NCBI GenBank assembly: GCA_902787365.1
Contig: CADAGC010000003.1
Coordinates: 1 to 45,982 of the forward strand
DNA length: 45,982 nucleotides
Reading direction: 5' to 3'
Origin: an uncultured Ruminococcus sp.
GTDB lineage: Bacteria; Bacillota; Clostridia; Oscillospirales; Ruminococcaceae
Part shown: one piece after another, positions 5,650 through 27,866 of the stretch
Layout: every line of letters begins with the position of its first letter
How positions within the stretch are numbered: the first letter of the stretch is position 1
Position numbers and translations under genes: made by a program
Notes under the pieces: generated by a model
Databases searched by the model: none
The model's input: only the letters and a program-made list of their open reading frames with translations
What the model was told of the DNA's origin: nothing

Positions 5650-6774
5650 CTATTTCTTTCCGAGTATCTTTATCTCGCCCAGGAATGATCTTCTGTTTAT
5701 AACAAGACCTCTGAACACTCTGTAAAGCCAGCCGACGGGCAAAAGTACCTTATGTTTATATGCCCATGGTACAGATTCTTTGTAGAATTCAAGCGGCGGG
5801 AATACTCTATACAGCATATATCTTGCTTTTGAGCCTTTGCCGTGTTTTTTGATGCCGTTATTTACAGAATTCTTGAACGAACCGTATGTGCCTGAGAAGA
5901 TATAATAGTCAAGCTGTGCTTTTTCGGCTTCATCGAGCTTTTTGCCTTCAAGCACCTTAAAAGCAAGGCTGCGGCTTTGCTTTTCGTAATCGGCAATGCC
6001 GAGCTTTTCAAACTCACGGGTGATATAGTCATAGTCAAGCACATTGTTATATCTGCTGATATATATATAGCTGTCTACCAGCGAGCGTATGCCTGTGCCG
6101 CCAAGTGAATAGTGGCTGTATTCGTGAGCTATCATATAGATATAGAAATCTTCTTTGGTAAAATGGTAGCCGAAAGAATTATCTTCATCTTTTATCAGGC
6201 GGTCTTTTACCGATTCATAATAGCTGTAGAACAAATGGAAATTACGTTTATTGAACAACTCGCTGTGAAGCTCAAAGTTATATACGGGCTGTTTATAGTA
6301 TGCATCGTCCTTATGAGCGCCGAATTGCTCACTTTCATAATCAAGGCTGAGCATAATATCTCTGGCTGTTTCACGGAAGCTGCCGTCATAGAGAATGTCA
6401 TTATCAGACATCTGGCGCATACCAAGCTGAGGATAGAGATCTTTCATTATCACGCCCTTAAGCGGAATATACCATATACCCTCGTCCTCAAACCGTGAAA
6501 GGATATTTGCCCTTTCTGCATCAAAAAGTATATTCTTGCATATGGCCTTGTTTTTTGCTTCTTCAAAGGCTGCATCTTCCACTCCTGCTGACTCTAAAGC
6601 ATAAGCCGTCATAGCTGTCAGCGATTGTGACTGTGCATATTCAAAAAGCTGCTGCATATCCATTTTTGCGAGCTTTTCCTTTGAAGGTATCTTGCCTTGC
6701 AATACACATCTTATGAGATATATCATATAGAATGCATTTTGCTTGCAGTCATGTTTGTTCATCTTTATATCCAA
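5650..6774 (-). CDS. NTP_transf_5-type nucleotidyltransferase-like protein, last gene of operon
   Basis: A 374-residue protein related to the uncharacterised nucleotidyltransferase family NTP_transf_5, frequent in polysaccharide and cell-surface loci. The key block is in the first third: WYIPLKGVIMKDLYP followed by RQMSDNDIL, which matches the family's LKG...YP...R...D.D pattern, with the acidic DND as possible metal ligands. The rest is predicted helical. Family members are suspected to transfer nucleotidyl or phosphoryl groups, but no substrate is established. It begins 27 bp after phosphonopyruvate decarboxylase and ends at the terminator, so it belongs to the operon; its role in the glycan is inference only. 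Confidence 0.75.
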   Translation of the reverse strand: MDIKMNKHDCKQNAFYMIYLIRCVLQGKIPSKEKLAKMDMQQLFEYAQSQSLTAMTAYALESAGVEDAAFEEAKNKAICKNILFDAERANILSRFEDEGIWYIPLKGVIMKDLYPQLGMRQMSDNDILYDGSFRETARDIMLSLDYESEQFGAHKDDAYYKQPVYNFELHSELFNKRNFHLFYSYYESVKDRLIKDEDNSFGYHFTKEDFYIYMIAHEYSHYSLGGTGIRSLVDSYIYISRYNNVLDYDYITREFEKLGIADYEKQSRSLAFKVLEGKKLDEAEKAQLDYYIFSGTYGSFKNSVNNGIKKHGKGSKARYMLYRVFPPLEFYKESVPWAYKHKVLLPVGWLYRVFRGLVINRRSFLGEIKILGKK

Positions 6775-6800
6775 CTTTCAAATAAAATGCGAAGATCAGC

Positions 6801-7922
6801 TTATCTGCCGCTGAGGTAGTTCATAAAGTTCTGCTTGTTCTCAAGTGCGGTGGTCGTGGGTCTGCCCAGATCATCTCTTGCGCCTATCGAGCATTTTACT
6901 TCGATAAGGCTGAGTTCACTGCGGCTCTTTGCTTTTTCAAGCTCGCTGTCAAGTGCTTCAAAGCTGTCAACAGACACAGCGTTAGGGTAGCCACAGGCCT
7001 TTGCGACCGCAACAAGGTCTATATCGCCTGCGACTGTAGGCATACCGCCGACAGTTTCGTGGGCTGAGTTATTTATTATTATATGTATCATATTAGCGGG
7101 CTTGTTTGCGCCGAGCACTGCCATAGAGCCCATATGCATCAGCACAGCGCCGTCGCCGTCTATACACCATATCCTCTTTTCCGGCTGATTAATTGCAACG
7201 CCGAGAGCTATAGAGGAGCTGTGACCCATAGAGCCGACTGTAAGGAAATCATACCCATGGCTCTGAGAATTTGCCTCACGTATCTCAAAAAGCTCACGGC
7301 TCGCCTTACCGGTGGTGCTGACTATCGGGTCTTCACCGCTGAAGCTGACGATATGACGGATTATTTCTTCACGCATCATTGTATTATTATTTTTATACTC
7401 GACCTTGGGGGCATCTGTGAGCGCACCCTTACGCACAACGAACGCCACCTGTTTGCCCTTTGCAAGCAATTCTCTAAAGCCGTTCATAGCAGCTGTAAGT
7501 TCATCGGCAGTAGTATCTTTGCTTATGATAAAGGAAGCTATATCCATATCATCAAGCAGCTTTACGGTGACCTCGCCCTGATAGATATGCTGGGGCTCGT
7601 CATGTATGCCGGGCTCGCCACGCCAGCCTACAATGAATATTATAGGTATAGCATAAACCTTTTCATTGAGCAGGCTTGCTACGGGGTTTATTATATTGCC
7701 CTCGCCGGAGTTTTGCATATACACTACAGGTACTTTGCCTGTTGCAAGGTGATAGCCTGCTGCAAGTGCGGTACAGTTGCCCTCGTTGGCAGCGATAATA
7801 TGGTGATTACTGTCGATGCCGTATGTGTCCATAAGGTAGTTGCACAGTGCCTTGAGCTGTGAATCGGGAACGCCCGTATAAAAATCGGCACCTATTATTT
7901 TAACAAGCTCTTCTACTTTCAT
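6801..7922 (-). CDS. aepY: Phosphonopyruvate decarboxylase
   Basis: Thiamine-diphosphate enzyme that decarboxylates phosphonopyruvate to phosphonoacetaldehyde, pulling the unfavourable PEP mutase equilibrium towards C-P bond formation. At 373 residues it has the expected length. The N-terminal pyrimidine-binding domain shows FYTGVPDSQLK, the ThDP-activating Glu region AANEGNCTALAAGYHLATGK and QNSGEGN. The C-terminal domain has the ThDP/Mg motif GDGAVLMHMG followed after about 20 residues by INN. The family also includes sulfopyruvate decarboxylase; the PEP mutase at 11716-13014 in the same operon decides for phosphonopyruvate. It lies between the unassigned oxidoreductase (50 bp) and the NTP_transf_5 gene. 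Confidence 0.93.
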   Translation of the reverse strand: MKVEELVKIIGADFYTGVPDSQLKALCNYLMDTYGIDSNHHIIAANEGNCTALAAGYHLATGKVPVVYMQNSGEGNIINPVASLLNEKVYAIPIIFIVGWRGEPGIHDEPQHIYQGEVTVKLLDDMDIASFIISKDTTADELTAAMNGFRELLAKGKQVAFVVRKGALTDAPKVEYKNNNTMMREEIIRHIVSFSGEDPIVSTTGKASRELFEIREANSQSHGYDFLTVGSMGHSSSIALGVAINQPEKRIWCIDGDGAVLMHMGSMAVLGANKPANMIHIIINNSAHETVGGMPTVAGDIDLVAVAKACGYPNAVSVDSFEALDSELEKAKSRSELSLIEVKCSIGARDDLGRPTTTALENKQNFMNYLSGR

Positions 7923-7972
7923 TATATGACCCTTTCTATGCTGATGCTTTAAGTCTTAAGCGGAATGCATTA

Positions 7973-9157
7973 TCATTTCTTTTCAGTCTGCGGGAGTATT
8001 ATCTCATCTATGATAAACTTAGCAGTTTTGTCGATATCGTCGTAAGCAACTGTCTTGGGCAGCTCTTTACCGAATGCTGCTTTAGCTTTTTCGATAAGTG
8101 CATCTGTATAGATGAGCTTACCGTCAACGACATCTTCAACGCCGTCAAGCGCCATAGATGCACGGTCAGCCTTATTCATCTGCTCAAAGCTGAATACCGA
8201 CTCATCTATCCATGCGTCGAGCTTACCATCCTTATAGCCTACAGCAACAGGGTAGCCGCCGATATTGCCGTCAAAGCCGGGACTGAACACCTTCTGCTGA
8301 TTGCCTGTTCTTATAGCATCTATAACAGCCGAGATTATCTGATAGTTACTTGATGCGTTCATCATATTTCTTGTCTGGTCAACAGGCATAGAGATATGGC
8401 AGGCCTTGAACACCTCATCCTGCGGTATATCCTTCTGCTCGCCCTTATAGTATATTCTGAGAGGGAGTTCAACGCCCTCAGTCTGGCCTTCCTTGCTTAT
8501 ACATACATCATGGAAATGGCCTGCTGCAAACATTATATCAACGTTCCAGAAATCATCAACGCCCAGCATATTTGCAACAGCGAACTTCATACGTGGAACA
8601 AGGTGGTTGAGGTTGCCGCTGCCGAAATCGGGGTAAGCCTTGCCGGCGCTCTTGAGCCAGGGGATAACTGCATCAGAGTAAGATGTGTTTATAACAACAG
8701 CATCTGTATCAGCTTTGTCGCAGGCCTCCATAACATTTTTTGTAAAGCGTATCGCAAGCGGGCTCCATATACCGTAGGCTCTTACATTTGCCCAGGATAT
8801 GCTGCCATATTTAAGGCCGGGGTAAGCACGGCTTGAGTTTACTATGAAATTAGGCTTATACTTTTCGATAGCCGTAGTTATAGCGTCTATATCATTAAGA
8901 TCAACGCCGCCCTCGACCTGGATATCAGACTTGTTAACGCCTCTGATAAGGCCTGCAACTCTTGTTATATTTACCTTTGTCTGCATTTTCTCGGCATCTC
9001 TGCCAACTGCCACTATGCTTATTGCGGGGTCATTTCTGCTCATAAGGTAGTCAAGCAGGTATGCACCAACGCTGCCAAGGCCTATTATCATTATCTTTAT
9101 CTTGTTTTCTTTCACATGGCTCTCAACGACCTGAAGTCTCTGCTGTAAGGTTTTCAT
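7973..9157 (-). CDS. Rossmann-fold NAD(P)-dependent oxidoreductase of unknown substrate
   Basis: A 394-residue cytoplasmic protein that I cannot place in a named family. It opens with a classical dinucleotide-binding fold (IKIMIIGLGSVGAYLLDYLM, then VAVGRD). A later segment (DAVVINTSYSDAVIPWLKSA and FGSGNLNHLVPRMKFAVANM) recalls the second half of lactate/malate-type or saccharopine-type dehydrogenase Rossmann domains. The start at 9157 is chosen because GGGAGGA lies 6 nt before it and it overlaps the previous stop in an ATGA junction; a longer frame to 9220 lacks this. Its place between the LicC-like nucleotidyltransferase and phosphonopyruvate decarboxylase makes it a candidate for acting on a phosphonate intermediate such as phosphonoacetaldehyde, but that is inference. 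Confidence 0.6.
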   Translation of the reverse strand: MKTLQQRLQVVESHVKENKIKIMIIGLGSVGAYLLDYLMSRNDPAISIVAVGRDAEKMQTKVNITRVAGLIRGVNKSDIQVEGGVDLNDIDAITTAIEKYKPNFIVNSSRAYPGLKYGSISWANVRAYGIWSPLAIRFTKNVMEACDKADTDAVVINTSYSDAVIPWLKSAGKAYPDFGSGNLNHLVPRMKFAVANMLGVDDFWNVDIMFAAGHFHDVCISKEGQTEGVELPLRIYYKGEQKDIPQDEVFKACHISMPVDQTRNMMNASSNYQIISAVIDAIRTGNQQKVFSPGFDGNIGGYPVAVGYKDGKLDAWIDESVFSFEQMNKADRASMALDGVEDVVDGKLIYTDALIEKAKAAFGKELPKTVAYDDIDKTAKFIIDEIILPQTEKK

Positions 9158-9924
9158 TTTTCGTCCTCCCAATATGATAATATTTTTTTGTAGTCTGCTC
9201 TTGTGTTGCAGTTTGTCCACCTTTCGAGGGGCAACAGCTCAAACGTGCTGCTCTCGCAGGAGTTTATATAATTCTGTATGATAAGAAGGTTAGTGCCTGC
9301 CTTATCCTGTTCATAGAATTTTTCATTTGCTTCTTTTAGCTTTTTCGCATCGGTGAATTTCCAAAGCTGGCCCGAATTGAGTATAACCGAAAATGCATCA
9401 TCTATCTTCAGAAGCCCGTGGCTGCTGTTGAATGCATATTTATAGCAGCCCTCACCGTCCTTATAAAGAACTACGGCCTTGTTTGCATATATAGGCTCAT
9501 ACGAGTAGGTAAGAACATTTTTCTCAGAGGATACGACTCTTTCAAAAGATTTTTCATCAATATCAAGGTCGCCTTCGACAAATAGCACTTCATCGGGCTG
9601 TTCATATCTTTTAAACAGTTCATCAAGTCCCACATAAAGGCTGTAGCCCGAAGCAAGGTCGGCGTAATGCTCATTAAATACGAGTATTATCTTCTCTCTC
9701 ATCTGTGCGGGAAGTGCATTGCAGTATTCCTTGACGTCATCATACTTATTTCCGCCTACAAGTATTATCTTATCGGCATACATACATTTTTGCAGCAGGT
9801 GATAGAGGAGCGAGTCGTAAGGATCATTCTCATAGTAAATTATTTTATGGCGCTTTTCGTTTTCGGGTATGCCCTCATTGAACCTGCTTGATATACCCGC
9901 AATAGTTATTATAGCAGCTTTCAT
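9154..9924 (-). CDS. LicC/MobA-like nucleotidyltransferase
   Basis: A 256-residue GT-A-fold nucleotidyltransferase related to phosphocholine cytidylyltransferases (LicC) and sugar-phosphate nucleotidyltransferases. The N terminus AAIITIAGISSRFNEG is a variant of the AAGxGxR nucleotide loop, and FVEGDLDIDEKSF gives the acidic metal-binding D.D. The second half, with SSHGLLKIDDAFS and W..C.TRADY, is consistent with the LicC group. In a phosphonate operon the likely job is to make a CDP-activated head group, for example CMP-linked phosphonate, for a LicD-type transferase; inositol-phosphate or choline-phosphate are alternatives. It overlaps the next gene (ATGA) and follows the SDR gene by 9 bp. 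Confidence 0.7.
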   Translation of the reverse strand: MKAAIITIAGISSRFNEGIPENEKRHKIIYYENDPYDSLLYHLLQKCMYADKIILVGGNKYDDVKEYCNALPAQMREKIILVFNEHYADLASGYSLYVGLDELFKRYEQPDEVLFVEGDLDIDEKSFERVVSSEKNVLTYSYEPIYANKAVVLYKDGEGCYKYAFNSSHGLLKIDDAFSVILNSGQLWKFTDAKKLKEANEKFYEQDKAGTNLLIIQNYINSCESSTFELLPLERWTNCNTRADYKKILSYWEDEK

Positions 9925-9933
9925 ATATCTCCC

Positions 9934-10935
9934 TTACTTTTTCAGATAATTCGTTATACACTCATCAAGACCCTTTTCAAGCCCCACAACAGGCTTCCAG
10001 GAGGTCCTTGTGCGTATCTTTTCTGTAGAGAGAAGTCTTCTCTCGGGGTCTGATTCTCTATAGCCCTCAAATTCGATAACAGGGTCGGTGATGCCCATTT
10101 TTGCAGCACACATCTTTGCAAGGTCGATGATAGATATTTCTTCATCGGTAGCCACGTTATAAACTGTTCCGTCAAGTGCAGAGTCGGTATCAACGAGTGC
10201 GAGGACTGCGCTGCAGCTGTCGTAGTTATTAAGGAAGGTGCGTCTGTTCTTTCTTGAATTCTCAAGAAGAGTTACCTTGCCCTTATCACGGAAGCTGTTG
10301 ATTATGAAGGGGATGATATGCTTTGGGTATCTCTCATCTTTGCTGTAAACATTTGCAAAGCGTATCGAGCAGCCCTTTATCTTGCCGGTATCTACGGCAT
10401 CCTTCATAAAGAACTCGGTCAGCAGCTTACCTGTTGCATAGCTTGTACGCTGGCTGTGCTCTGCAACGGCCATTGTAAGGAAATCGCTCTCCTTTACGCC
10501 GCCGTTCTCGTTCCATGAGTTCATCGAATACACCTCAGATGTCGAGCAGTTTATATACTTGTCGGCACCAACACGCACAGCCTGCGAGAGCAGATCGTTC
10601 ATACCCTCGACGTTCGTTGCAAATGTCTCATACACGTGGTAGAAATGCTCTGTGTGCACTACTGCTGCGCAGTTTATATATATTATTTCGCTGTATGCAG
10701 GTGCGAGCTTCTTTACACGCTCTTCAATATCTTGCATCTGTGTTTTATTATTGATATCATACTCAAAGAATTCAAAGCGCTCATCGTCTATATGGTCTGC
10801 GACCGTGTCGATAGATGAAGCGAAGAAATTATCAAAGCCAAGGATATGGTCAGTACTGTCTTTGGAAAGTATCTGTCTTACCAGCTCATTTCCTGTCATA
10901 CCCGTAACACCGCTGATAACGTATAGTTTACTCAT
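9934..10935 (-). CDS. NAD-dependent epimerase/dehydratase (extended SDR)
   Basis: A 333-residue extended short-chain dehydrogenase acting on a nucleotide-activated or phosphorylated substrate. It has the GxxGxxG cofactor loop (SGVTGMTGNELV), the acidic residue after beta-2 (GFDNFF), the NVEG turn and the catalytic YxxxK in TSYATGKL, with an upstream STSEV serine. The C-terminal half (EDPERR-type RESDPERRLLSTEKI) is typical of sugar epimerases of the GalE/RmlB superfamily. It lies between the metallophosphoesterase and the LicC-like nucleotidyltransferase; which sugar or alcohol it modifies is not readable. Confidence 0.85.
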   Translation of the reverse strand: MSKLYVISGVTGMTGNELVRQILSKDSTDHILGFDNFFASSIDTVADHIDDERFEFFEYDINNKTQMQDIEERVKKLAPAYSEIIYINCAAVVHTEHFYHVYETFATNVEGMNDLLSQAVRVGADKYINCSTSEVYSMNSWNENGGVKESDFLTMAVAEHSQRTSYATGKLLTEFFMKDAVDTGKIKGCSIRFANVYSKDERYPKHIIPFIINSFRDKGKVTLLENSRKNRRTFLNNYDSCSAVLALVDTDSALDGTVYNVATDEEISIIDLAKMCAAKMGITDPVIEFEGYRESDPERRLLSTEKIRTRTSWKPVVGLEKGLDECITNYLKK

Positions 10936-10952: not shown

Positions 10953-11699
10953 TTATACACCGTATGTAAGTCTTGTCTTATAGAATTTATCGATCTCGTC
11001 GGGGAAGAGCGATTGTTCGTATTCCACATCGTATGGTACAGCCCGCAGTTCCACTCTCTTTGAAGGCAGCGAGAGCACAGCATACTGAGCATACGGGTTT
11101 TGGTTGCGTGGCTGCCCTACAGAGCCGGGATTGATAAAAGTCACGGCCTTTTTGTTCCTCAGTTCGGGGGCATCTGCCTTGTAAAAATGTGCAAAGCAGT
11201 GAGAATAATGAGAATGCCCGCCCATTACTATATCATAGTTGCTGTAATCTCCTCTGAGTTCATCGGGGGCAATAGCTTTCCAGTAATTATCTTCAAGTGA
11301 GCCGTGTACTGCAAGGCATCTTAGTCCGCAAAGTTCAAATTTCTGTATGCCTTTTTTGTTCATTGATACGTTTATATACTCTACTGATGTCTCTGTAAGC
11401 TGATCAGCCGTATATTTTGCCATTACACGCCCACGGTCTGATGACAGTCTTTCAAGGTCTTTATCTACCACGAGCTTTTCGTGGTTGCCCCATATATTGA
11501 CGATGAGCCTGCCTTTCCAGTCACCCTCTTCAAGTGCTATAAGGCGCTTTATCATCTCATTCGAGCGCATACCGTAATCTATACAGTCACCGAGTATTAT
11601 TATACCCGTAAAGTTTTCGTTTTCACAGTCCTTCATCACGGCATCGAATGCGCTTATATTGCCGTGTATGTCGGAGAGAATAAGATATTTATTATCCAA
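10953..11699 (-). CDS. Calcineurin-like metallophosphoesterase
   Basis: A 248-residue binuclear-metal phosphoesterase of the YfcE/diadenosine-tetraphosphatase group. The full motif set is present in order: LSDIHGN (D-x-H), LGDCIDYG (GD), WGNHEK (GNHE), then VMGGHSHYS (GHxH) and NPGSVGQPR. The YfcE-like ending (NPGSVGQPRN) usually goes with small soluble phosphodiesterases or phosphatases. It lies directly after the PEP mutase gene (16 bp), so it may dephosphorylate or hydrolyse an intermediate of the phosphonate branch; an unrelated housekeeping role is possible. Confidence 0.87.
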   Translation of the reverse strand: MDNKYLILSDIHGNISAFDAVMKDCENENFTGIIILGDCIDYGMRSNEMIKRLIALEEGDWKGRLIVNIWGNHEKLVVDKDLERLSSDRGRVMAKYTADQLTETSVEYINVSMNKKGIQKFELCGLRCLAVHGSLEDNYWKAIAPDELRGDYSNYDIVMGGHSHYSHCFAHFYKADAPELRNKKAVTFINPGSVGQPRNQNPYAQYAVLSLPSKRVELRAVPYDVEYEQSLFPDEIDKFYKTRLTYGV

Positions 11700-11715: not shown

Positions 11716-13014
11716 TCATATCTCGTCTATAAGTCTTATTATATCCTTGAAGGGCATCAGTCTTGAATCTACTTCCTTGGCTCTGTGAGCTCTGAGTATA
11801 TCCTCGGCTGTTGACTTCATAACAGGGAATGCCGCCCTCATCAGCTGGTTAGCGTAGATGACGATATTTACCCCGTGAGAAGCAAGCTCCTCCTCGGTGA
11901 CCTGATTGAAGGACGTGGGAACTACGACTATAGGTGTCTTTTTATCCTTCTCTCTGAACTTATCGCAGAATTCAAATATCTCTGCGGGGTCTTTTTTACG
12001 GCTGTGTATCATTATGCCGTCTGCGCCGGCAGCGGTGAATGCGAATGCCCTTTCAAGAGCGTCGTCCATACCACGTTCGAGAATAAGGCTCTCGATCCTT
12101 GCAATTATCATAAAGTCATCAGACAGCTGTGCTTTTTTGCCTGCGGCTATCTTTGCACTGAAATTCTCGATGCTGTCCTGAGTCTGTATTACCTCTGTAC
12201 CGAACAGGCTGTTCTTTTTAAGGCCTGTTTTATCTTCTATTATCACTGCGCTGACGCCCATGCGTTCAAGTGTGCGGACGTTATATACAAAGTGCTCGGT
12301 AAGCCCGCCTGTGTCACCATCAAGGATTATAGGCTTTGTAGTGACTTCCATTATATCGTTTATAGTGTTAAGGCGTGAGGTCATATCAACGAGTTCGATA
12401 TCGGGCTTGCCTTTGGCTGTGCTGTCGCACAGAGAAGAGACCCACATAGCATCGAACTGATCGAGCTTGCCGTCCTCACTCTCTACTACGGTCTTTTCAA
12501 CGATAAGACCTGTAATGCCCGAGTGCGCCTCCATTGTCTTTACGATAGGTGTCATATCGATGAGCTGACGCAGCCTTTTTCTTCTGTATTCGGGCATCGA
12601 CAGCTTTTCTCTAAGTCTGTCATCTACCTTTTTTACATTTTCGTTATAGGTATAGGGAACGTCTATTATCTCACCGCCGTATTCGGCAAGGAGCTTTTCT
12701 ACGTGAGTTCTTATGGTCTTTTCAGGGCCGTCCTTCCAGTTATCGCCATGCACGATAAAGTCAGGGTGCAGCTTATTTATGATATCATCGTAAAGCATAT
12801 TATCCTGAAGCACCACTTCATCTACGCCGTCAATGGAACGGTATAGCTCCATTCTCTCCTCCTCCGAGGTCGTAGGGAATTTGGTGCAGCGTATCATTTC
12901 CTTGTCACTGAGGCAGCCGACAACTACTTTGCCGTGCTGCTTTGCGTGCTCGATTATGTTTAAATGGCCGTCGTGTATCACATCGGTGCAGAAACAAACA
13001 TAAACAGTTTTCAT
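11716..13014 (-). CDS. PEP mutase fused to N-terminal cytidylyltransferase-like domain
   Basis: Makes the C-P bond by rearranging phosphoenolpyruvate to phosphonopyruvate. Residues about 1-130 are a TagD/GCT-like nucleotidyltransferase domain: CTDVIHDGHLNIIEHAK contains the HxGH signature and VVGCLSD follows. Residues about 150-430 are the isocitrate-lyase-superfamily mutase, with ILDGDTGG and the hallmark EDKTGLKKNSLFG (EDKxxxKxNS), which separates true mutases from lyases. Fusions of this kind are known in phosphonolipid and phosphonoglycan loci. Unusual here: the RTxGISTT-like motif expected near the end of the transferase domain is replaced by VPYTYNENVKKVDD, so cytidylyl transfer may be lost. 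It lies 52 bp after the sugar kinase gene. Confidence 0.93.
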   Translation of the reverse strand: MKTVYVCFCTDVIHDGHLNIIEHAKQHGKVVVGCLSDKEMIRCTKFPTTSEEERMELYRSIDGVDEVVLQDNMLYDDIINKLHPDFIVHGDNWKDGPEKTIRTHVEKLLAEYGGEIIDVPYTYNENVKKVDDRLREKLSMPEYRRKRLRQLIDMTPIVKTMEAHSGITGLIVEKTVVESEDGKLDQFDAMWVSSLCDSTAKGKPDIELVDMTSRLNTINDIMEVTTKPIILDGDTGGLTEHFVYNVRTLERMGVSAVIIEDKTGLKKNSLFGTEVIQTQDSIENFSAKIAAGKKAQLSDDFMIIARIESLILERGMDDALERAFAFTAAGADGIMIHSRKKDPAEIFEFCDKFREKDKKTPIVVVPTSFNQVTEEELASHGVNIVIYANQLMRAAFPVMKSTAEDILRAHRAKEVDSRLMPFKDIIRLIDEI

Positions 13015-21171: not shown

Positions 21172-22233
21172 TCAGTCCCCACCGATCAGCGCTTTTAATA
21201 TTTTGACTGTATGGTCAAAGCCCTCTCGTGCATCAAAGCAGCCCTTCCAGCCAAGGCCGATAAGGCCTGTGCTTTCAAGTGAGGAGTTGCTCATGGGGTT
21301 GAAGCCCTTTCGCTCGGCATCGGTGGGCAGTTCAGTCTTTAAGGTGGTTTTTGCGCTTTCGGCCAGCAGCTGTGCCATCTGCTTTATGCTTATTATCGAA
21401 TCGGGGTTAGAGATATTGTAGGCACGGCAGTTTTGCCCGCATAACAGCACTTTCAGTATGGCTGATGCACAGTCAAGGCAGTAGCAGTAGCTGCGTATCT
21501 GTGCCCCGTCGCTTTTCATGACTATATCTTCACCACGTGCGGCGGAATATGCCCACGCCGAAGATACTCTGTTGTCATTCGGTGATGCGGTAGGGCCGTA
21601 TATGTGTCCGGGACGTATTATGACGCTTTCGACACCGTATTCATCGGCATATGAGGCGCACAATGTTTCTGCGGCTCTTTTGCCTACCGAGTACGAATTC
21701 CTTGCATTGAGAAGGTCGATGTAGCCGTACTGGTCTTCCTTGTAGGGCTCGTTTCCGTCCTTTTTGCCATACACCTCGCTTGAACTGATGTAAAGTATCC
21801 TTTTTGTACCATGATCCTTTGCATAATCGAGGAGATATTTCATCCCGAGGAAATTGCTCAACATCGTTTCGACAGGCTCTTTCACTATCATACCGGGGAA
21901 GGCGTTGCTTGCTCCGTGTATGATGTAGTCAGCCTTTACATTTATTACGTTGTCTGTTCTTGAGGCATCATATGACACAAAGTGAAAATCAGGCCTGTCC
22001 ACTTGCTTGCCGAAGCGGGTCTGCATCTCTTCTATCCAGCGGCCTGCTGCAAGTATCTCTATCTTTTGCCTGTGGGTGTCGTTATATCTGAATAGTATAT
22101 CGACCACAGACGAGCATATAAGACCTGCTGCACCCGTTATCATAACAGAATGCCCCGCAAGTTCGTCAAGCTCGGGTATAACTGACGAGACTCTGTCTAT
22201 ATCCTCAAGCCATAGTGAGTTGTCGTATAGCAT
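21172..22233 (-). CDS. NAD-dependent epimerase/dehydratase (SDR) next to IspD-like gene
   Basis: A 353-residue extended SDR enzyme. VMITGAAGLICSSVVDILF is the cofactor loop; its third glycine, normally TGxxGxxG, is replaced (GLICSS). The catalytic set is present (YISSSEVYG Ser and NSYSVGKRAAE YxxxK), and IIRPGHIYGP is the usual substrate-binding turn. It lies 10 bp after the IspD-like cytidylyltransferase and 50 bp before a LicD gene, an arrangement that suggests modification of the same CDP-linked unit. The exact reaction (reduction, epimerisation or decarboxylation) cannot be read. Confidence 0.85.
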   Translation of the reverse strand: MLYDNSLWLEDIDRVSSVIPELDELAGHSVMITGAAGLICSSVVDILFRYNDTHRQKIEILAAGRWIEEMQTRFGKQVDRPDFHFVSYDASRTDNVINVKADYIIHGASNAFPGMIVKEPVETMLSNFLGMKYLLDYAKDHGTKRILYISSSEVYGKKDGNEPYKEDQYGYIDLLNARNSYSVGKRAAETLCASYADEYGVESVIIRPGHIYGPTASPNDNRVSSAWAYSAARGEDIVMKSDGAQIRSYCYCLDCASAILKVLLCGQNCRAYNISNPDSIISIKQMAQLLAESAKTTLKTELPTDAERKGFNPMSNSSLESTGLIGLGWKGCFDAREGFDHTVKILKALIGGD

Positions 22234-22243: not shown

Positions 22244-22957
22244 TTATTTCAGCCAGTCGGAACGCTTTGCTGCCAGCAGCGCTTTGAATATGTCAATATC
22301 CTCAACCGTGGTCAGCTTGATGTTCTTTTCAGAGCCGGCAGAAAAATACACCTGCTCGCCCATTTCTATTTTCAGTGTGCAGGAAGCAACTGAATTGGTT
22401 ATCCCTGCTTCAAGTGCTCTTCTGTGAAGATCGCATATATCCTTTATCCTGAATGCCTGCGGGGTCTGTGTTCTCTTAAGGCGGTCACGAGGATAGCTGC
22501 CGACTGACACCTTGCCGTCCTCTGTCTGCATCATAGCCTCGGCACAGGGGATGACCGTTATAGCGTTGCCGAACTCACGTGCCACACGTATGTTGTCAGA
22601 AATAATCTCTGCGCTTACCATAGGACGTATAGCATCGTGTATCAGCACAAGGTCGTCGCCGTCAAAATGCTTCTCAAGCTCGTATACGCCGTTTCTTATC
22701 GAGTCCTGCCCGTTCTTTCCGCCGGGTATGACATATTTGAGCTTTGATATGTTGAACTGCTTGGAATATGCCCACAGTACCTGCTCCCAGCCGTCGATGC
22801 ACACAACTGCTATCGCATCTATCTCGGGGTGGCGCTCAAAGGCTTCGAGCGTATATACTATCACAGGGCGCTCATTTACAGTGATGAACTGTTTGGGAAT
22901 ATCCTGATTCATCCTGTTTCCCGAGCCGCCTGCTATCAAAAGTCCTATATTAGCCAT
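22244..22957 (-). CDS. IspD/TarI-like cytidylyltransferase
   Basis: A 237-residue CTP-dependent nucleotidyltransferase of the IspD family. The nucleotide loop LLIAGGSGNRMNQDIPKQF, the GGKNGQDSIRNG block and VLIHDAIRPMVS are all canonical, and KRTQTPQAFR is the late signature. In surface-glycan loci such proteins are usually alditol-phosphate cytidylyltransferases (TarI, Bcs1 type) rather than the isoprenoid enzyme. Its neighbours, a LicD protein 34 bp upstream and an SDR 10 bp downstream, favour CDP-ribitol or a related CDP-alditol, a pairing that parallels ISPD and FKTN/FKRP in animals. The precise substrate is inferred. Confidence 0.88.
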   Translation of the reverse strand: MANIGLLIAGGSGNRMNQDIPKQFITVNERPVIVYTLEAFERHPEIDAIAVVCIDGWEQVLWAYSKQFNISKLKYVIPGGKNGQDSIRNGVYELEKHFDGDDLVLIHDAIRPMVSAEIISDNIRVAREFGNAITVIPCAEAMMQTEDGKVSVGSYPRDRLKRTQTPQAFRIKDICDLHRRALEAGITNSVASCTLKIEMGEQVYFSAGSEKNIKLTTVEDIDIFKALLAAKRSDWLK

Positions 22958-22991
22958 AGATAATACCTTCTTTTATCTTTTTTGTGTGCCG

Positions 22992-23735
22992 TCAGTGTTC
23001 CGTGCGCACGGGGGTCATATAATCGCCGTACTGTTCGGTCAGATAGTTGTCCCAGCTTTTTATTGCCATAAGCTGTGTCTGCTCAAAGTTAACAAGCTCA
23101 TAATTGTCCATCATAGCCGCATCGTATATGCAGCCGAGACTCTGGAAAATGTCGTTGCATATCATAAGAGGCTGTGTCTTATTTTTGTTGCCCCATTTTG
23201 AAACGTGGGTATACATCTTCTTTTTAGTCTTTGCTGAGAATACCCTGCCGAGCAGACCAGTTACCGCAAGTGCTGCTTTGTAAAATAGCGAGAACTGCTT
23301 TTTCTGGTTTGTACGCTCTTTCATCATTCCCTGCAGAGTTTTCAGGCACAGCACCTTCACTCTGTGCCCGAGTGATGATGCAGGCACTCTGTCTGCTATG
23401 AATATATCAAGAACAGGTGTGCTGTCCTTGATACCTTCCTTCCTGAAGGTATCCTTTCTTACTATCTTGAACACCCACAGCTGCTCTTTTATGCAGTATT
23501 TGCCGAGCTCACGGCGCTTTGAGAGCAGCTTTTCAAAGTTTGCCCTGTCGAGTATGATATCTATATCATCATCCCAGGGGATAAAGCCCTTGTCTCTTAT
23601 CGCACCGAGCAGCGTGCCGCCGATGATCGAATACTTTATGTCGTTCTTGACACAGAAGCTGTGAAGATCACACATCATAGCCAGCAGCTCACGCTGTTTG
23701 TCGGCCACCTTGTAGGAATCATTTGCATCTATCAC
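22992..23735 (-). CDS. LicD family phosphotransferase (second)
   Basis: A 247-residue LicD/fukutin-family protein. The motif NDIKYSIIGGTLLGAIRDKG then FIPWDDDIDIILDRANFE carries the GG...R and DDDID metal-binding residues. Towards the C terminus, YGDYMTPVRTEH matches the usual family ending. It is shorter than the first LicD and lies 34 bp before the IspD-like gene, so it is the likely user of that enzyme's CDP-product. The donor (CDP-alditol, CDP-choline or CMP-phosphonate) cannot be chosen from the sequence. Confidence 0.9.
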   Translation of the reverse strand: MIDANDSYKVADKQRELLAMMCDLHSFCVKNDIKYSIIGGTLLGAIRDKGFIPWDDDIDIILDRANFEKLLSKRRELGKYCIKEQLWVFKIVRKDTFRKEGIKDSTPVLDIFIADRVPASSLGHRVKVLCLKTLQGMMKERTNQKKQFSLFYKAALAVTGLLGRVFSAKTKKKMYTHVSKWGNKNKTQPLMICNDIFQSLGCIYDAAMMDNYELVNFEQTQLMAIKSWDNYLTEQYGDYMTPVRTEH

Positions 23736-23762
23736 GTTTCATACCGCCAATCTTAGATTTAA

Positions 23763-24815
23763 TCAGGCTCTGTATTCGGGGAAGAAGCCGCTGTTGTCTG
23801 TCTGACCTCTTAACTCGGTAAGGCGCTTGTATGCTTCTTCGTCTGTTATCTTTTTGCCTATGTAGAACTGCTTGTCCTCGCCCTTTTTGTAGAAGCTCTT
23901 TTTGAAATCGTAAAGAGGGCCTTCCTTTGCGCCGAGGCCGCCGCCGAGATGAAGCCACTCGCAGCCATGCTCGCAGCCCCATTTTGCCGCCTCGTAGAGT
24001 ATCATATTGGTGCCGGCATATCTTCTGTATTCAAAAAGCTGGCCGCTGAGGTGGTAATTCATATACCTGTCTGTATATATCATTATCGAGGAAGAAATGG
24101 GTATATCGCCAAGATATGCTGTAAACAGCGTGAAGCTGCCCTCAAGGTCGTTTCTTATGCTCTCGAAAAACTCGTTGTCAAAGTAATAATACGAATTGGC
24201 ATCATCGTGATCCATTGTGGTCTCATATATTTTGCAGAAAATATCAAAGGCCTCTTTGGAAGTTTCTTTTCTTACGGTAACGCCCTCTTTCATCGCAACA
24301 CGGATGTGACCTCTGTTCTTTGAGCTGAATCGTTCCCAGATCTTCTCTTCATCATCAAGCTCTATGGCTACGGTGTTTCCGAGAAACACCTTTTCGTAGA
24401 AATCGTTGAATTTTTCCTGTGCGTTGTTTATCACCGGGTGAAAACGTACAAATTCGCTGACGATGCGGTTTTGTTTGCACCATGCGGTGTATTCTTTGCA
24501 GAATGTCTCAAACCCCTCATCAGTCTGCTCTCCCTCAAAGTGCCAGCCGCCGTAGCCGTAGGGGGTCGCAAGGTCGAAGTATTCGCCGTGCGAGAGCTTA
24601 CCCTCAAAGTTCTTGTCATCAGCGATGTCACGCTTCATAACTACGTTGATGCCACGCAGCCCGTCGCCCTCGTAGATGATAAGCATAGGCTCGCCGTCGC
24701 CGTGCAGCTTGAAAGCTCTTACATATCCACTGAGGTGGTAAACATCACACTCGCTGAATGATCTTGCAGCCGCATCCCATTCTTCGCTTTGGTTGAGGTC
24801 ATAAATTGTCAGCAT
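23763..24815 (-). CDS. FemAB-like GNAT-fold aminoacyl/acyl transferase
   Basis: A protein of about 350 residues with a tandem GNAT fold of the FemAB/Acetyltransf_6 type. The N-terminal part has VYHLSGYVRAFKLHGDGEP, a typical opening, and the second domain shows YMNYHLSGQLFEYRRYAGTN and HLGGGLGAKEGPLYDFKKSF, the FemAB-like ending with the GG and FK elements. Such proteins attach amino acids or acyl groups to peptidoglycan precursors or glycans. The start at 24815 is chosen because AAGGAG lies 8 nt upstream. It follows the small GNAT gene immediately. A glycan amino-sugar acceptor is likely given the operon, but is inferred. Confidence 0.8.
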   Translation of the reverse strand: MLTIYDLNQSEEWDAAARSFSECDVYHLSGYVRAFKLHGDGEPMLIIYEGDGLRGINVVMKRDIADDKNFEGKLSHGEYFDLATPYGYGGWHFEGEQTDEGFETFCKEYTAWCKQNRIVSEFVRFHPVINNAQEKFNDFYEKVFLGNTVAIELDDEEKIWERFSSKNRGHIRVAMKEGVTVRKETSKEAFDIFCKIYETTMDHDDANSYYYFDNEFFESIRNDLEGSFTLFTAYLGDIPISSSIMIYTDRYMNYHLSGQLFEYRRYAGTNMILYEAAKWGCEHGCEWLHLGGGLGAKEGPLYDFKKSFYKKGEDKQFYIGKKITDEEAYKRLTELRGQTDNSGFFPEYRA

Positions 24816-24816
24816 T

Positions 24817-25302
24817 TTATTTCTCCTTAGGTCGGGGGTCATTCCCCTTTAAGTGTTTTTTCATAAGCAGACGCTCTGTTGTGAAATCTGCATTCTCGTA
24901 AAATGACACGGCATTTTTGTTGCTTGCCGTCACCATTAGATCTATCTCATCATAGCCGTTGCTGCAGGCATATTCTTCTGCTGTGGCAAGCAGCTTTGAG
25001 CCTATGCCTTCGTGCTGATGCGTGCTGCTCACGGCTATCTCAGCTATATGCAGACGTTTTTTGTTCAGCCTGTTTATGCGGTGTATCCATATAAAGCCGT
25101 AAAGCTCATCCTGTTCGACTGCTGCGAGCACAACGGCACTTAGATCTTTCAGGTGCTCGTGTATGATACAGCATCTGTCATCGCCGTAGCTCTTGCCTGC
25201 ATCAAAGTCTTTGAAATTGAGCTTTACCGAACTGTCGAGCAGCTCGGCTATCTGTCTGCGCCATTTATCAAAGCTTACATCATTTATCCTTATCAGTTCC
25301 AC
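24817..25302 (-). CDS. GNAT family N-acetyltransferase
   Basis: A single-domain GNAT acetyltransferase of about 161 residues with the acetyl-CoA loop AVSSTHQHEGIGSKLLATAE (Q.xGxG/A type) and the late SFYENADFTTERLLMKK segment. The start is taken as GTG at 25302, because AGGAAAGGAAAG lies just upstream; it then overlaps the sugar transferase stop by 23 bp, a sign of translational coupling. A longer frame to 25353 lacks a ribosome site. It probably acetylates an amine of the glycan or one of its precursors; the acceptor is unknown. Confidence 0.82.
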   Translation of the reverse strand: MELIRINDVSFDKWRRQIAELLDSSVKLNFKDFDAGKSYGDDRCCIIHEHLKDLSAVVLAAVEQDELYGFIWIHRINRLNKKRLHIAEIAVSSTHQHEGIGSKLLATAEEYACSNGYDEIDLMVTASNKNAVSFYENADFTTERLLMKKHLKGNDPRPKEK

Positions 25303-25918
25303 GCTTTGCTTTCCTTTCCTCATCAAGGTCAAGCATATCAAAACTGCCGGCATCGACGATGTCTTTGTGGCTGATGACCTTCATCACGGTCTTTAGGATT
25401 ATGCTAAGATCGCCCTTGAAAGTAATATTCTTGACATATTCAACATCCATACCGAGTCTTTGATCCCATTTGACGGCGTTTCTGCCGTTTACCTGCGCAA
25501 AACCTGTAAGACCAGGCCTTACCGAGTGCCTTTTGCGCTCTTTGTCGGTGTAATATGGTAAATATCTTTCGAGCAGCGGCCTGGGACCCACTATCGCCAT
25601 ATCGCCCTTGGCTATGTTTATAAGTTCGGGCAGCTCGTCGAGAGAGGTCTTGCGAAGAAAGCGCCCGTAGGCTATCAGCCGCTTTTCATCGGGGAGAAGC
25701 TCACCGTTTTTGTCCTTCTCATTTGTCATTGTGCGAAACTTTATCAGTTTGAATATCTTTTCATTGCGCCCGGGTCTGTTCTGTGTGAAGAAGGGGTTGC
25801 CCTTCATAGCGCAGGTGCCTGCTGCCGAAAGAACAACGAGCACAGGGCTAAGCGCAGCAAGGGCAGTTACCGATAAAAAGCAGTCCAGCGGTCTTTTGAC
25901 ATATTTCTCGTATATCAT
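25280..25918 (-). CDS. PglC-type initiating sugar-phosphate transferase
   Basis: A 212-residue monotopic phosphoglycosyl transferase that starts glycan synthesis by moving a sugar 1-phosphate from a nucleotide sugar to undecaprenyl phosphate. There is one N-terminal re-entrant/hydrophobic segment (residues about 10-35), then the family block FTQNRPGRNEKIFKLIKFRT, DELPELINIAKGDMAIVGPR (with the catalytic Asp-Glu dyad region) and VRPGLTGFAQVNGRN. The short, PglC-like length (no extra transmembrane domain) suggests a diacetamido or N-acetyl amino sugar as substrate, in line with the adjacent DegT aminotransferase and acetyltransferase. UDP- versus dTDP-donor cannot be decided. Confidence 0.92.
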   Translation of the reverse strand: MIYEKYVKRPLDCFLSVTALAALSPVLVVLSAAGTCAMKGNPFFTQNRPGRNEKIFKLIKFRTMTNEKDKNGELLPDEKRLIAYGRFLRKTSLDELPELINIAKGDMAIVGPRPLLERYLPYYTDKERKRHSVRPGLTGFAQVNGRNAVKWDQRLGMDVEYVKNITFKGDLSIILKTVMKVISHKDIVDAGSFDMLDLDEERKAKRGTDKDK

Positions 25919-25941
25919 AAATTCTCATCCACCTAATCTTT

Positions 25942-26481
25942 TCAGTATTTGCCGTGAGCTTTGTAGAACTCTTTCCAGCACCATTTTGCGGCCGCATCGC
26001 TCAACTGCTCGCCACTTGGGCTCAGTTCATCGGGATAGCTGTTTTCGCCTGCTCTCTTTGAGAGATAGTCGTCAAAGCTTCCGATGACCCTTGCGGGAAC
26101 ACCTGCAACAACGGAATTGGGTGGGACATCCTTATTGACAAGGCTTCCCGCACCTATAATTACATTTGAACCTATAAGGACCCCATACAGTATGGTAGAG
26201 CCCGCACCGACGAATACATTATCCTGTATCTCGATGCAGCCTATCTTCTCTTTGAAGCCCTTTTTACTTACATTCGGGTTATGATTGAGCATAACGTGGG
26301 TGACATCGTGTGTTATAAAGGTCACCTTTGACGCAAGACGGACGTTATTGCCGAGCTTGATGAGGTTGGCATATAACGGCACAGTTCTGTTCATTATGCT
26401 GCAATTCTTGCCTATAGACGCAAAAACGCCTTTTTTCTGAGGTATTCTGTGCGCTTTTGGCTTGAAAGTATGGTGTAGCAT
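25942..26481 (-). CDS. Left-handed beta-helix (hexapeptide) acetyltransferase
   Basis: A 179-residue acyl-CoA-dependent transferase with hexapeptide repeats: IGKNCSIMNRTVPLYANLIK leads into IEIQDNVFVGAGSTILYGV, LIGSNVIIGAGSLVNKDVPP and NSVVAGVPARVIG, the standard CatB/NodL/WbbJ-type ending. His in the IGFITHDVTH-like loop (FITHDVTHVMLNH) is the likely catalytic base. It lies between the DegT aminotransferase (72 bp) and the sugar transferase (24 bp), so N-acetylation of a newly aminated sugar is likely; O-acetylation of the glycan is the alternative. It lacks the N-terminal Rossmann part of PglD. Confidence 0.85.
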   Translation of the reverse strand: MLHHTFKPKAHRIPQKKGVFASIGKNCSIMNRTVPLYANLIKLGNNVRLASKVTFITHDVTHVMLNHNPNVSKKGFKEKIGCIEIQDNVFVGAGSTILYGVLIGSNVIIGAGSLVNKDVPPNSVVAGVPARVIGSFDDYLSKRAGENSYPDELSPSGEQLSDAAAKWCWKEFYKAHGKY

Positions 26482-26552
26482 CTAAGTGTATGCCATAATC
26501 TTTTACTGTGCATAGTCTCACTCCTTGGCGTAAAGGTCTTGCCGTGTGCTCT

Positions 26553-27866
26553 TTATCTGAAGCACCTGTGTATTATCTCTATCACCTTGTCCTGCTGCTG
26601 CTGCGTCATTTTGTTGTCGCTCGGCAGACAAAGGCCTCTTGCGAATATATCGGCACCAACATCTATGCCGCTGCCTGCGATGTATGCGTTGCTCCTGCCC
26701 CTGCCGCTGCCTTCAGCGGTTATGAAGGCATTTGAGCGGTATATGGGCTGCATATGCATAGGTTTCCATATCGGCCTGCCCTCTGCATTGAATGCCGCAA
26801 GTGCTTCAAGTATCTCCTGCGGCGAGCTTTTGCCGCTTTCGCTCTTGTATAAGTAATCCTGCTCGCCCCTTACCATAGGCGCCAAAGCTTCTTTGTTTAT
26901 TATCATGCAGCTGAGCCAGAAGTTTGGTATGGAATTCTCTCTGTCCCAGGGGTTCATCTTTACGGGAAGGTCTGCAAGACCCTTTTCGTATCTTTCATAG
27001 ATAGCCTTTTTCTGAGCGATGTGCTCATCGAGGAAAGGTATCTGCCCACGTACTACGCCTGCAACTATGTTGCTCATACGGTAGTTGTATCCAAGCTCCT
27101 CATGCTGGTACCAGGGGGCAGCCTCACGGCTCTGTGTGCTCCATTTTCTTACCTTGTCGGCATCTTCCTTGGAGTTTGTCAGAAACATACCGCCTGCGCT
27201 GCCTGTTATTATCTTGTTTCCGTTAAAGCTGATAGCGTTGTAATTGCCAAGAGCACCGGTCTCTACCCATTTCCCACCGAGCTTGTATTTAGCGCCGAGG
27301 CTCTCCGCTGCATCCTCAACGATAAGTGCGCCGTGCCTGTCACATATTTCCTTTATCCTGTCCATCTTTCCGGGTGTGCCGTAAAGATGCGCAACTATCA
27401 CGAGCCTTACGTCAGGGTACATCTCAAAGGCCTTCTCAAGTGCTCCGGGGCTCATGTTCCATGTGTCATATTCGGTGTCTATGAATACTGCCTCGCCGTC
27501 CTCATAGCCGACGGGGTTTATGCTTGCATCGAAGGTACAGTCTGAGCAGAATACCTTTTTGCCGCTGAGCGTGCCCTTGTCGGGTCTTGCCTGCCCATAG
27601 AGCTTCTCGCCTGCGAGCTTTGTTGCAAGGTGCAGCGAAGCTGTGCCTGCACTCAAAGCGACTGCGTGCTTTACGCCTACATACTCAGCAATGAGCTTTT
27701 CTGTCTCATTAATGTTTGCGCCTACTGTAGACACCCAGTTTGTCTGTATGGCTTCATCCACCCACTTTTGCTCGTCGCCGTGCATAGTGGGGCTGGCAAG
27801 CCACAGCTTTGCCTTGAAAGGCTCGATACCCTCAAAACGGGGGTCGGTCAAAAAATCATTCATCAT
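26553..27866 (-). CDS. DegT/DnrJ/EryC1/StrS aminotransferase, first gene of operon
   Basis: A 437-residue PLP-dependent sugar aminotransferase. Key parts are LSAGTASLHLATKLAG (phosphate-binding), DAAESLGAKY (the PLP-ring Asp) and AISFNGNKIITGSAGG, where Lys is the PLP Schiff-base residue. It converts a 4-keto (or 3-keto) nucleotide sugar to an amino sugar with glutamate. It is first in the operon and next to the acetyltransferase and the PglC-like transferase, so it should make the initiating amino sugar. No UDP-GlcNAc dehydratase is in the window, but rfbA-rfbB diverge from it and could supply dTDP-4-keto-6-deoxyglucose. It is slightly long for the family (usually about 370-400). Confidence 0.92.
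   Translation of the reverse strand: MMNDFLTDPRFEGIEPFKAKLWLASPTMHGDEQKWVDEAIQTNWVSTVGANINETEKLIAEYVGVKHAVALSAGTASLHLATKLAGEKLYGQARPDKGTLSGKKVFCSDCTFDASINPVGYEDGEAVFIDTEYDTWNMSPGALEKAFEMYPDVRLVIVAHLYGTPGKMDRIKEICDRHGALIVEDAAESLGAKYKLGGKWVETGALGNYNAISFNGNKIITGSAGGMFLTNSKEDADKVRKWSTQSREAAPWYQHEELGYNYRMSNIVAGVVRGQIPFLDEHIAQKKAIYERYEKGLADLPVKMNPWDRENSIPNFWLSCMIINKEALAPMVRGEQDYLYKSESGKSSPQEILEALAAFNAEGRPIWKPMHMQPIYRSNAFITAEGSGRGRSNAYIAGSGIDVGADIFARGLCLPSDNKMTQQQQDKVIEIIHRCFR

Follow-up and report, generated by a model that had tools for sequence, protein, structure and literature searches.

A six-gene phosphonate cassette with a conserved enzyme tetrad in a predicted surface-glycan operon of an uncultured Ruminococcus

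Described phosphonate clusters and the Ruminococcus cassette

In the excerpts of Rice et al. 2019 (PMC6697681) on which we draw, the bulk of bacterial phosphonate capacity is thought to be destined for cell surfaces, the steps after phosphonoacetaldehyde are called poorly known, and a reference is given for the first isolation of 2-aminoethylphosphonate (AEP), from rumen protozoa. The same excerpts describe the Pnt clusters with PntC of Treponema denticola and Atopobium rimae, which combine a phosphoenolpyruvate (PEP) mutase (PepM) carrying an EDKx5NS motif and a fused cytidylyltransferase domain, a phosphonopyruvate decarboxylase (Ppd), a PntC-like cytidylyltransferase and LicD genes close by. 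Here we describe a cassette that shares these features, found in a stretch of 45,982 nucleotides (the window) from an uncultured Ruminococcus sp. (assembly GCA_902787365.1, contig CADAGC010000003.1, positions 1 to 45,982). It lies in an operon of 22 successive minus-strand genes, running from 27866 to 5650 in the window's list of open reading frames (ORFs), and its six genes are in the order PepM-MPE-SDR_b-DUF6564-dehydrogenase-Ppd (13014-6801; module P). The metallophosphoesterase (MPE), the extended short-chain dehydrogenase/reductase (SDR_b), the DUF6564 protein and the dehydrogenase make up what we call the tetrad.

The PepM motif reads EDKTGLKKNS at residue 260. What sets the cassette apart from the Pnt clusters, as far as the excerpts describe them (PMC6697681), is that the AEP transaminase is absent, with the MPE, SDR_b and a dehydrogenase of lactate/malate dehydrogenase (LDH/MDH) fold in its place, and that the PntC-like partner is the stand-alone DUF6564 protein. 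The missing transaminase aside, assignment of the cassette to the Pnt kind is well supported by its genes, and a surface phosphonate is the predicted product. The start of fosfomycin biosynthesis offers a second parallel: Fom1 shares the fusion of PF01467 with PepM and, in the same excerpts, a nucleotide-tethered intermediate, the cytidine monophosphate (CMP) ester of 2-hydroxyethylphosphonate (HEP), of a kind that we propose here; the operon, however, has neither an iron alcohol dehydrogenase (Fe-ADH) nor fosfomycin tailoring genes and is set in a glycan locus. A third comes from the Methanobrevibacter millerae SM9 genome paper (PMC4987999, in excerpt), which reports a four-gene cluster in strain ZA-10 and suggests that it modifies the cell-wall polysaccharide of this rumen methanogen; the two of its four genes that the excerpt names, PEP mutase and phosphonopyruvate decarboxylase, are common to both. 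No description of the tetrad was found among the matches listed in the open-licence literature searched, which is not proof of absence, and DUF6564 is not named in that literature.

We hold it somewhat more probable than the contrary that the tetrad converts phosphonoacetaldehyde or phosphonopyruvate into a CMP-phosphonate by a route other than that of the AEP transaminase, and that LicD-type transferases place this phosphonate on a Wzx/Wzy glycan. Gene content, conservation, linkage to PepM, the lack of an AEP transaminase over the cut-off in this genome and two predicted folds are direct observations, and from them we infer the order of the reactions, the CMP tether, the product and its placement on the glycan.

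Conservation of the cassette and its tie to PEP mutase

Among 295 genomes of the order, the dehydrogenase had a single strong relative (G187, 456.9 bits, in the gene order MPE-SDR_b-DUF6564-dehydrogenase-PepM-Ppd) and five others of about 20 bits; most PepM loci of the order were without the tetrad. We then queried a collection of species genomes with the dehydrogenases of the window and of G187, obtained 154 relatives and kept the best 80 loci. As these were fetched by the dehydrogenase, the counts that follow say how often other genes accompany it and not the reverse. All six cassette genes were present (>35% identity) in 58 of the 80 loci, on one strand in 57 of these 58, and the exact order of the window was kept in 38 of the 80. 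In tblastn searches with the 22 proteins of the operon, relatives of the dehydrogenase were found in 80 loci, of DUF6564 in 78, MPE in 73, SDR_b in 72, Ppd in 66 and PepM in 64, while the remaining genes were much scarcer (LicD_b 33, IspD 12, SDR_a 9, DegT 7, Wzx 4, LicD_a 3, the aldolase 2, and KdsB, PfkB, PglC, Hexapep and NTP5 one each). PepM was present in 36 and Ppd in 37 of the 42 loci of at least 21 kb. Of the 80 loci, 31 had a LicD gene no more than 3 kb from the cassette; the corresponding numbers were 0 of 20 for the loci obtained with the aldolase and 4 of 19 for those obtained with PepM.

The cassette is carried by Lachnospiraceae, Ruminococcus, Butyrivibrio, Treponema and Methanobrevibacter, and by a cultured strain, Eubacterium ruminantium ATCC 17233 (L150). 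In a tree of the 80 dehydrogenases, the Methanobrevibacter rows, eight in number, group in a single clade (100/100) among Bacillota, and two Treponema rows group in a clade of their own, a topology that fits transfer of the cassette from Clostridia to rumen methanogens. The Methanobrevibacter rows gain credibility because a cluster with PEP mutase and phosphonopyruvate decarboxylase has been reported in strain ZA-10 (PMC4987999, in excerpt); binning errors may account for lone rows, for example Muribaculum (L202) and Acidaminococcaceae (L136). In L136, relatives of IspD (93%) and SDR_a (67%) lie near the cassette (L136:16016-17846), a hint of recent transfer or of mis-binning. An ABC transporter permease cluster lies ahead of the cassette in eight of the 80 loci (L132, L133, L136, L139, L147, L156, L157 and L195); the one transporter scanned, that of L136, is nearest to a putative AEP transporter type (PhnU2 permease), with all three models below their cut-offs.

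PepM was absent from 16 of the 80 loci, some of them incomplete. Seven of the 16 were checked genome-wide (L178, L182, L185, L186, L188, L189 and L192), and a PepM above the TIGR02320 cut-off was found elsewhere in all seven. For comparison, a match of at least 450 bits to the PepM of the window occurs in 20 of the 295 genomes of the order; the comparison is uncorrected for kinship, and the dehydrogenase tree shows three of the seven genomes with a detached tetrad to be closely related. In G301 the tetrad is split, with SDR_b and DUF6564 adjoining PepM. A quick PepM tree of 88 rows, 87 of them with the EDKx5NS motif, placed the PepMs of tetrad loci in at least three positions: a large clade, the rows L176, L184, L191 and L212, and the two Treponema rows.

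The 295 genomes of the order were also searched with PepM and with the aldolase of the operon, and the surroundings of 39 matches, as much as 20 kb each, were mapped. The 19 stretches fetched by PepM, which include the G187 tetrad locus, held an AEP transaminase in two cases (L062 and L080) and an Fe-ADH (at least 38% identity to that of L067) in 11. By comparison, neither enzyme was found in 75 of the 80 tetrad loci, and an Fe-ADH (at least 50% identity) was present in four (L141, L153, L161 and L199). In three of these, L141, L153 and L199, PEP mutase occurs at least twice, once in a set with Fe-ADH and once with the tetrad, which gives the impression that two phosphonates are produced in parallel. 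None of the window genes encodes an AEP transaminase, and the genome of the operon (93.75% complete) gave no TIGR03301 match above the cut-off (best 40.7 vs 360.8 bits). The same search found no transaminase above the cut-off in 40 of 43 cassette genomes, a set that excludes L149, L199, L141, L153 and L161; when L149 (above the cut-off) and L199 (75% identical to the L062 transaminase) are added, five of 45 have one. Many of these genomes are metagenome bins, so these absences are soft.

The tetrad proteins and their possible product

PF20202, the DUF6564 model, scored above its cut-off in 13 of the 295 genomes of the order, and in eight of the 13 it matches a PepM triple fusion, in its N-terminal part; in the one such fusion scanned at full length, it falls on the nucleotidyltransferase domain. 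Searches of the PDB with the single sequence gave nothing useful, and a profile of 44 relatives found LicC first (E 0.0024). When an AlphaFold model (pLDDT 94.8) was compared with the PDB, the first three ranks went to the PntC chains 6pd2/6pd1 (E 2.0e-11 to 3.6e-11) and the seventh to LicC 1jyk; other sugar nucleotidyltransferases scored nearly as well as PntC. On these grounds DUF6564 very probably belongs with the nucleotidyltransferases of PntC/LicC type; its substrate we infer.

The dehydrogenase was likewise without useful PDB matches as a single sequence. Its model, built from 46 sequences (pLDDT 89.4, pTM 0.91), was compared with the PDB by Foldseek, and all of the best 50 of 434 matches (E <=0.001) were malate or lactate dehydrogenases, the best with E 3.7e-10 and the 50 with TM scores by query of 0.42-0.55. 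In the profile alignment with PF02866, the nucleotide-binding part and a GSG...R.K region are in register and the LDH Asp is unmatched. Assignment of the 415-residue ORF as a saccharopine dehydrogenase was considered; that match is confined to the nucleotide-binding part, and the LDH/MDH fold is preferred. Since phosphonopyruvate is oxaloacetate's phosphono analogue, reduction of phosphonopyruvate or of phosphonoacetaldehyde is an attractive role for the enzyme. More distant relatives (24-31% identity) occur in 11 rhizobial plasmid records and in Vibrio phage Va2 (31%, L232:8992-10143), where the neighbours are mostly hypothetical.

The motif residues of the MPE, which in metallophosphoesterases have a metal role, are invariant in 21 sequences, and its kin in the PDB include 3rqz and 3qfm, the latter of which we take to be a nucleotide polyphosphate hydrolase. 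SDR_b has the YxxxK and TSEVY motifs and is nearest in the PDB to dTDP-glucose 4,6-dehydratase (E 6e-22) and UDP-glucuronate decarboxylases (E 3e-16). Because CMP-phosphonates resemble CDP-alcohols, it is reasonable by analogy that enzymes of nucleotide-sugar type would act on them here and that the phosphoesterase would remove CMP.

Put together, three nucleotide-activated branches would feed the Wzx/Wzy glycan. IspD and SDR_a would make a CDP-polyol, from which LicD would transfer polyol phosphate; KdsB, the aldolase and the kinase would make a CMP-ulosonate for the GT52 enzyme; and module P would supply the phosphonate. In this last branch PepM would turn PEP into phosphonopyruvate and Ppd would turn phosphonopyruvate into phosphonoacetaldehyde, reactions that are established for their families, and the tetrad would do the job done elsewhere by AEP transaminase or Fe-ADH. 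Reduction or rearrangement of the phosphonate would fall to the dehydrogenase and SDR_b, the phosphonate probably having been joined to CMP by then, either by the PF01467 domain of PepM or by DUF6564; the MPE would take off the nucleotide or a phosphate, and the last CMP-phosphonate, the donor for a transferase of LicD type or for NTP_transf_5, would be made by DUF6564.

The conversion by a route without AEP transaminase is supported by the joint presence of the six genes in most loci, the PepM in all seven genomes with a detached tetrad, the scatter of tetrad PepMs over the PepM tree, the loci without transaminase or Fe-ADH, the PntC-like DUF6564, the LDH/MDH fold and the proximity of LicD. 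Several findings weigh against it. A transaminase (at least 60% identity) shares a locus with the tetrad in L149 and L199, two of the 80, and in five of the seven genomes with a detached tetrad a transaminase lies beside PepM, joined in two of these five (G296 and G298) by Fe-ADH, so that the tetrad is not always a substitute; we have accordingly softened the idea of a simple replacement, and such cells may make AEP, HEP and the tetrad product from one pool. No LicD relative was found in the 10 kb flanks of 45 of the 80 loci, many of them ended by the contig. The profile match of the dehydrogenase to 14 PF02866 proteins of the order is weak (34% probability, E 4e-4), and no annotated phosphonate gene was seen near its distant relatives in three surroundings from rhizobial plasmids and the phage, which show that the wider dehydrogenase family extends beyond phosphonates. 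In a more specific form, to which we give somewhat less than an even chance, the cassette would be a third route to surface phosphonates besides AEP and HEP, with the tetrad reshaping a CMP-tethered phosphonate into an undescribed C-P compound; the enzymes found beside PepM in the detached-tetrad genomes slightly lower its odds.

The main rival is that the tetrad is only an alternative route to plain HEP: phosphonoacetaldehyde, either free or bound as a CMP ester, would be reduced by the dehydrogenase, with the other proteins assisting or proofreading, and the glycan would bear ordinary HEP. The PF01467 domain fused to PepM is of the kind that makes CMP-HEP in Fom1 (PMC6697681, in excerpt), the triple-fusion PepM loci of the order use Fe-ADH at the same step, and the LDH/MDH-like fold would suit a reductase; but a single reduction needs fewer proteins than the MPE, SDR_b and DUF6564 that accompany the dehydrogenase in nearly all loci, and the tetrad coexists with Fe-ADH in four. 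We regard this alternative as unlikely, although it deserves to be taken seriously. Clearly less probable is a tetrad acting on AEP or on an imported phosphonate rather than on phosphonoacetaldehyde or phosphonopyruvate: the transaminases beside PepM in five detached-tetrad genomes and the permease cluster just ahead of the cassette in eight loci, nearest to PhnU2 in the one scanned, would agree with it, whereas the lack of a transaminase above the cut-off here and in nearly all cassette genomes, the presence of PepM and Ppd, which import makes needless, and the transporter scores below the cut-offs would not. There is little to recommend a secreted small-molecule phosphonate in place of a surface group; by eye, the tetrad stands beside genes without an evident glycan role in L185, L188 and L189, but LicD is often close to it, the cassette closes a Wzx/Wzy operon here, and two CMP-forming domains suit transfer.

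The operon around the cassette

The operon had been singled out in the earlier note for its combination of phosphonate and ulosonate genes (module U: KdsB, aldolase and kinase), and this emphasis did not hold up: the two sets are independent modules that share an operon by chance. Among 18 loci of the order sample with the fused aldolase (window excluded), PepM is present in one (L067), and the relatives of the KdsB, aldolase and kinase genes in the 80 cassette loci are as rare as given above. Beside the fused aldolase, a KdsB-like gene is adjacent in 16 of the 18 loci (and in a 17th, L087, in a second gene map), a GT52-like gene lies within five genes in eight and PfkB is adjacent in two. A single pathway, for instance one in which the aldolase condenses pyruvate with phosphonoacetaldehyde (rhizocticin biosynthesis has an aldolase with this activity) and KdsB activates the product, is rejected as very improbable on this mutual rarity and on L081, where KdsB-aldolase-PfkB is repeated with no PepM in its 20 kb, in spite of the shared operon, the fused aldolase with PepM in L067, the aldolase with the cassette in the nearly identical L137 and L138, and a shorter aldolase directly after PepM in L073, which also speaks against separable modules.

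The KdsB-like protein aligns over its full length with KpsU and retains K19, QGDEP and VDTP, while one His and one Gln of KpsU, presumably residues that touch 3-deoxy-D-manno-octulosonate (Kdo), are Gln and Ile here; for this reason the sugar may differ from Kdo. The matching Lys and two Asp are named in PMC3149649 (in excerpt). The module resembles the Gram-negative CMP-Kdo branch in a KdsB above the family cut-off and differs from it in its DmpG-kind aldolase and PfkB kinase; family scans of the 22 operon genes found neither KdsA synthase nor KdsC phosphatase, the rest of the genome not having been searched. The HMGL-like fused aldolase retains the TLRDG and HxH motifs, and in a fusion model of KHG/KDPG aldolase and kinase it is the latter half that the kinase of the module matches. 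The C-terminal domain of the aldolase (window 14120-14671) has a stretch, NAGLMLLKLL..C...LAGxDG, that is conserved in 18 aligned homologues. It has no Pfam match, and a PDB profile search gave two weak ones (ribosomal protein S7 and a SteA-like domain), leaving a guess by eye of a GT42/DUF115 kind unconfirmed. The module likely makes a CMP-activated 3-deoxy-ulosonate, perhaps not Kdo, and the GT52-like transferase likely uses a CMP-sugar donor. No joint mention of 4-hydroxy-2-oxovalerate aldolase, cytidylyltransferase and glycan was found in the open-licence literature searched.

A third nucleotide-activating set centres on the IspD-type protein, which scores 159 bits against a ribitol-5-phosphate model, slightly under the cut-off of 166, and likely belongs to a CDP-polyol branch; SDR_a adjoins IspD in L067 and L136 too. 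The CDP-ribitol system of ISPD with FKTN/FKRP (PMC4873967, in excerpt) likewise pairs an IspD-type cytidylyltransferase with transferases, differing from the present bacterial glycan with its extended SDR partner. Table 1 gives all genes. The LicD fold is shared with FKTN/FKRP, and bacterial polyol-phosphate loci are a related system. The NTP_transf_5 protein is a possible third transferase, and a relative (25% identity) comes after Ppd in L190. The initiating transferase, Wzx and Wzy are above their family cut-offs (PF02397, PF01943 and PF04932), which marks a Wzx/Wzy-dependent locus, and we take the product, from gene content, to be a surface glycan of that type.

The gene list and scans with Pfam and NCBIfam profiles agree with the earlier note on the one-strand run of 22 genes and on a Wzx/Wzy locus with genes for C-P bond formation, for a branch leading to a CMP-sugar acid and for LicD/IspD chemistry: all the glycan, ulosonate and phosphonate families were identified, with PEP mutase, Ppd and KdsB above their cut-offs and matches for the HMGL-like aldolase, PfkB, GT52, two LicD, IspD, Wzx, Wzy_C and Bac_transf. 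It had passed over the PF01467 domain of PepM, DUF6564 as a second cytidylyltransferase, the block of MPE, SDR, DUF6564 and dehydrogenase, and the divergent rmlA-rmlB, which may supply a dTDP-keto-sugar to the DegT aminotransferase heading the operon. Its gaps of 0-75 bp became -41 to +71 bp once some gene starts were revised (by a codon-usage gene caller and by comparison with relatives). Of its single perfect promoter and single terminator, the former stands, as the sole 12/12 match in the scanned stretches 4500-24400 and 24300-28500, and the latter is less certain: the strong hairpin at the 3' end has a weak minus-strand T tail, and a second, weak one that has a T run occurs within the operon (21184-21167). 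Both count against one transcript for the whole operon, which is on this account only likely.

Table 1. Coordinates of the operon genes and flanking elements in the window
Feature	Position	Strand	Basis
rmlA and rmlB, divergent	28395..30306	+	TIGR01207 460 bits, TIGR01181 501.8 bits, each above cut-off
Operon promoter	28043..28071	-	TTGACA-17-TATAAT, TG ahead of -10; 12/12, extended sigma-70-type; consensus match only
DegT/LegC-like sugar aminotransferase	26553..27866	-	PF01041 E 3e-67; LegC model 272.8 bits, under cut-off 420
Hexapeptide-repeat acyltransferase	25942..26481	-	PF00132
Initiating sugar-phosphate transferase, PglC-like, short	25280..25918	-	PF02397 E 1e-56
GNAT acetyltransferase	24817..25302	-	PF00583; start revised (codon-usage caller)
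FemAB-like aminoacyl/acyl transferase	23763..24842	-	PF02388 E 1e-15
LicD family phosphotransferase a	22992..23735	-	PF04991 E 3e-31
IspD-type cytidylyltransferase	22244..22957	-	PF01128 E 2e-37
Extended SDR (SDR_a), IspD partner	21172..22233	-	PF01370 E 3e-41
LicD family phosphotransferase b	20264..21121	-	PF04991 E 7e-45
Wzy polymerase / O-antigen ligase family	19014..20255	-	PF04932 E 3e-12
GT52/polysialyltransferase-like	18005..19054	-	PF07922 E 6e-14, PF07388 E 3e-11; KPHP motif
Wzx flippase	16489..17961	-	PF01943 E 9e-24; start revised (codon-usage caller)
Module U, KdsB-like CMP-ulosonate synthetase	15721..16485	-	TIGR00466 171.7 bits, cut-off 155.2; PDB KdsB matches E 4e-51
Module U, DmpG-like aldolase fused to C-terminal domain	14120..15703	-	PF00682; PDB matches 3dxi and 4-hydroxy-2-oxovalerate aldolases
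Module U, PfkB kinase, KDG-kinase-like	13067..14092	-	PF00294 E 9e-30; NF041633 535.9 bits, cut-off 700 set for full fusion
Module P, PEP mutase (PepM)	11716..13014	-	TIGR02320 413.6 bits, cut-off 319.55; N-terminal cytidylyltransferase domain PF01467
Metallophosphoesterase (MPE)	10953..11699	-	PF12850 E 7e-18
Extended SDR (SDR_b)	9934..10935	-	PF01370 E 5e-26; profile vs 6bi4 E 6e-22
DUF6564, PntC/LicC-like cytidylyltransferase	9154..9924	-	PF20202 E 1e-97
Dehydrogenase, LDH/MDH-like fold	7973..9157	-	Model and Foldseek; start revised (from relatives)
Module P, phosphonopyruvate decarboxylase (Ppd)	6801..7922	-	TIGR03297 466.6 bits, cut-off 312.5
NTP_transf_5 nucleotidyltransferase-fold protein	5650..6774	-	PF14907 E 3e-37
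Terminator-like hairpin	5581..5614	either strand readable	Strong stem

Next to the operon a transglutaminase-like protein with leucine-rich repeats and a dockerin domain is encoded at 1452-3095 of the window, beside a flagellin gene (2-1246); its PF00404 match bears out the dockerin protein noted before. Past rmlAB lies a pair of SbcD-like and SbcC-like nuclease genes (32932-37346). Further on, at 37491-45446, a tRNA-Met precedes A+T-rich DNA and genes encoding a TraG-like coupling protein, ClpP and a protein with a macro domain; an integrated mobile element may include this region.

An operon of ordinary glycan kind thus carries a phosphonate cassette that is not ordinary, its content and linkage observed and its chemistry read from them. 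Its four tetrad enzymes form a compact, conserved set that goes with PEP mutase while the next enzymes known from other pathways are mostly missing, and DUF6564, an uncharacterised Pfam domain, can now be placed as PntC-like. In vitro reconstitution of so small a set is feasible, and a cultured strain carries it, so that the question of its product is directly testable. A new product, if there is one, would add a phosphonate to the rumen; and if the tetrad is a third route, rumen microbes may commonly bear an undescribed phosphonate at the surface, because the tetrad is widespread in rumen and gut Clostridia, also occurs in Treponema and would have reached Methanobrevibacter by transfer.

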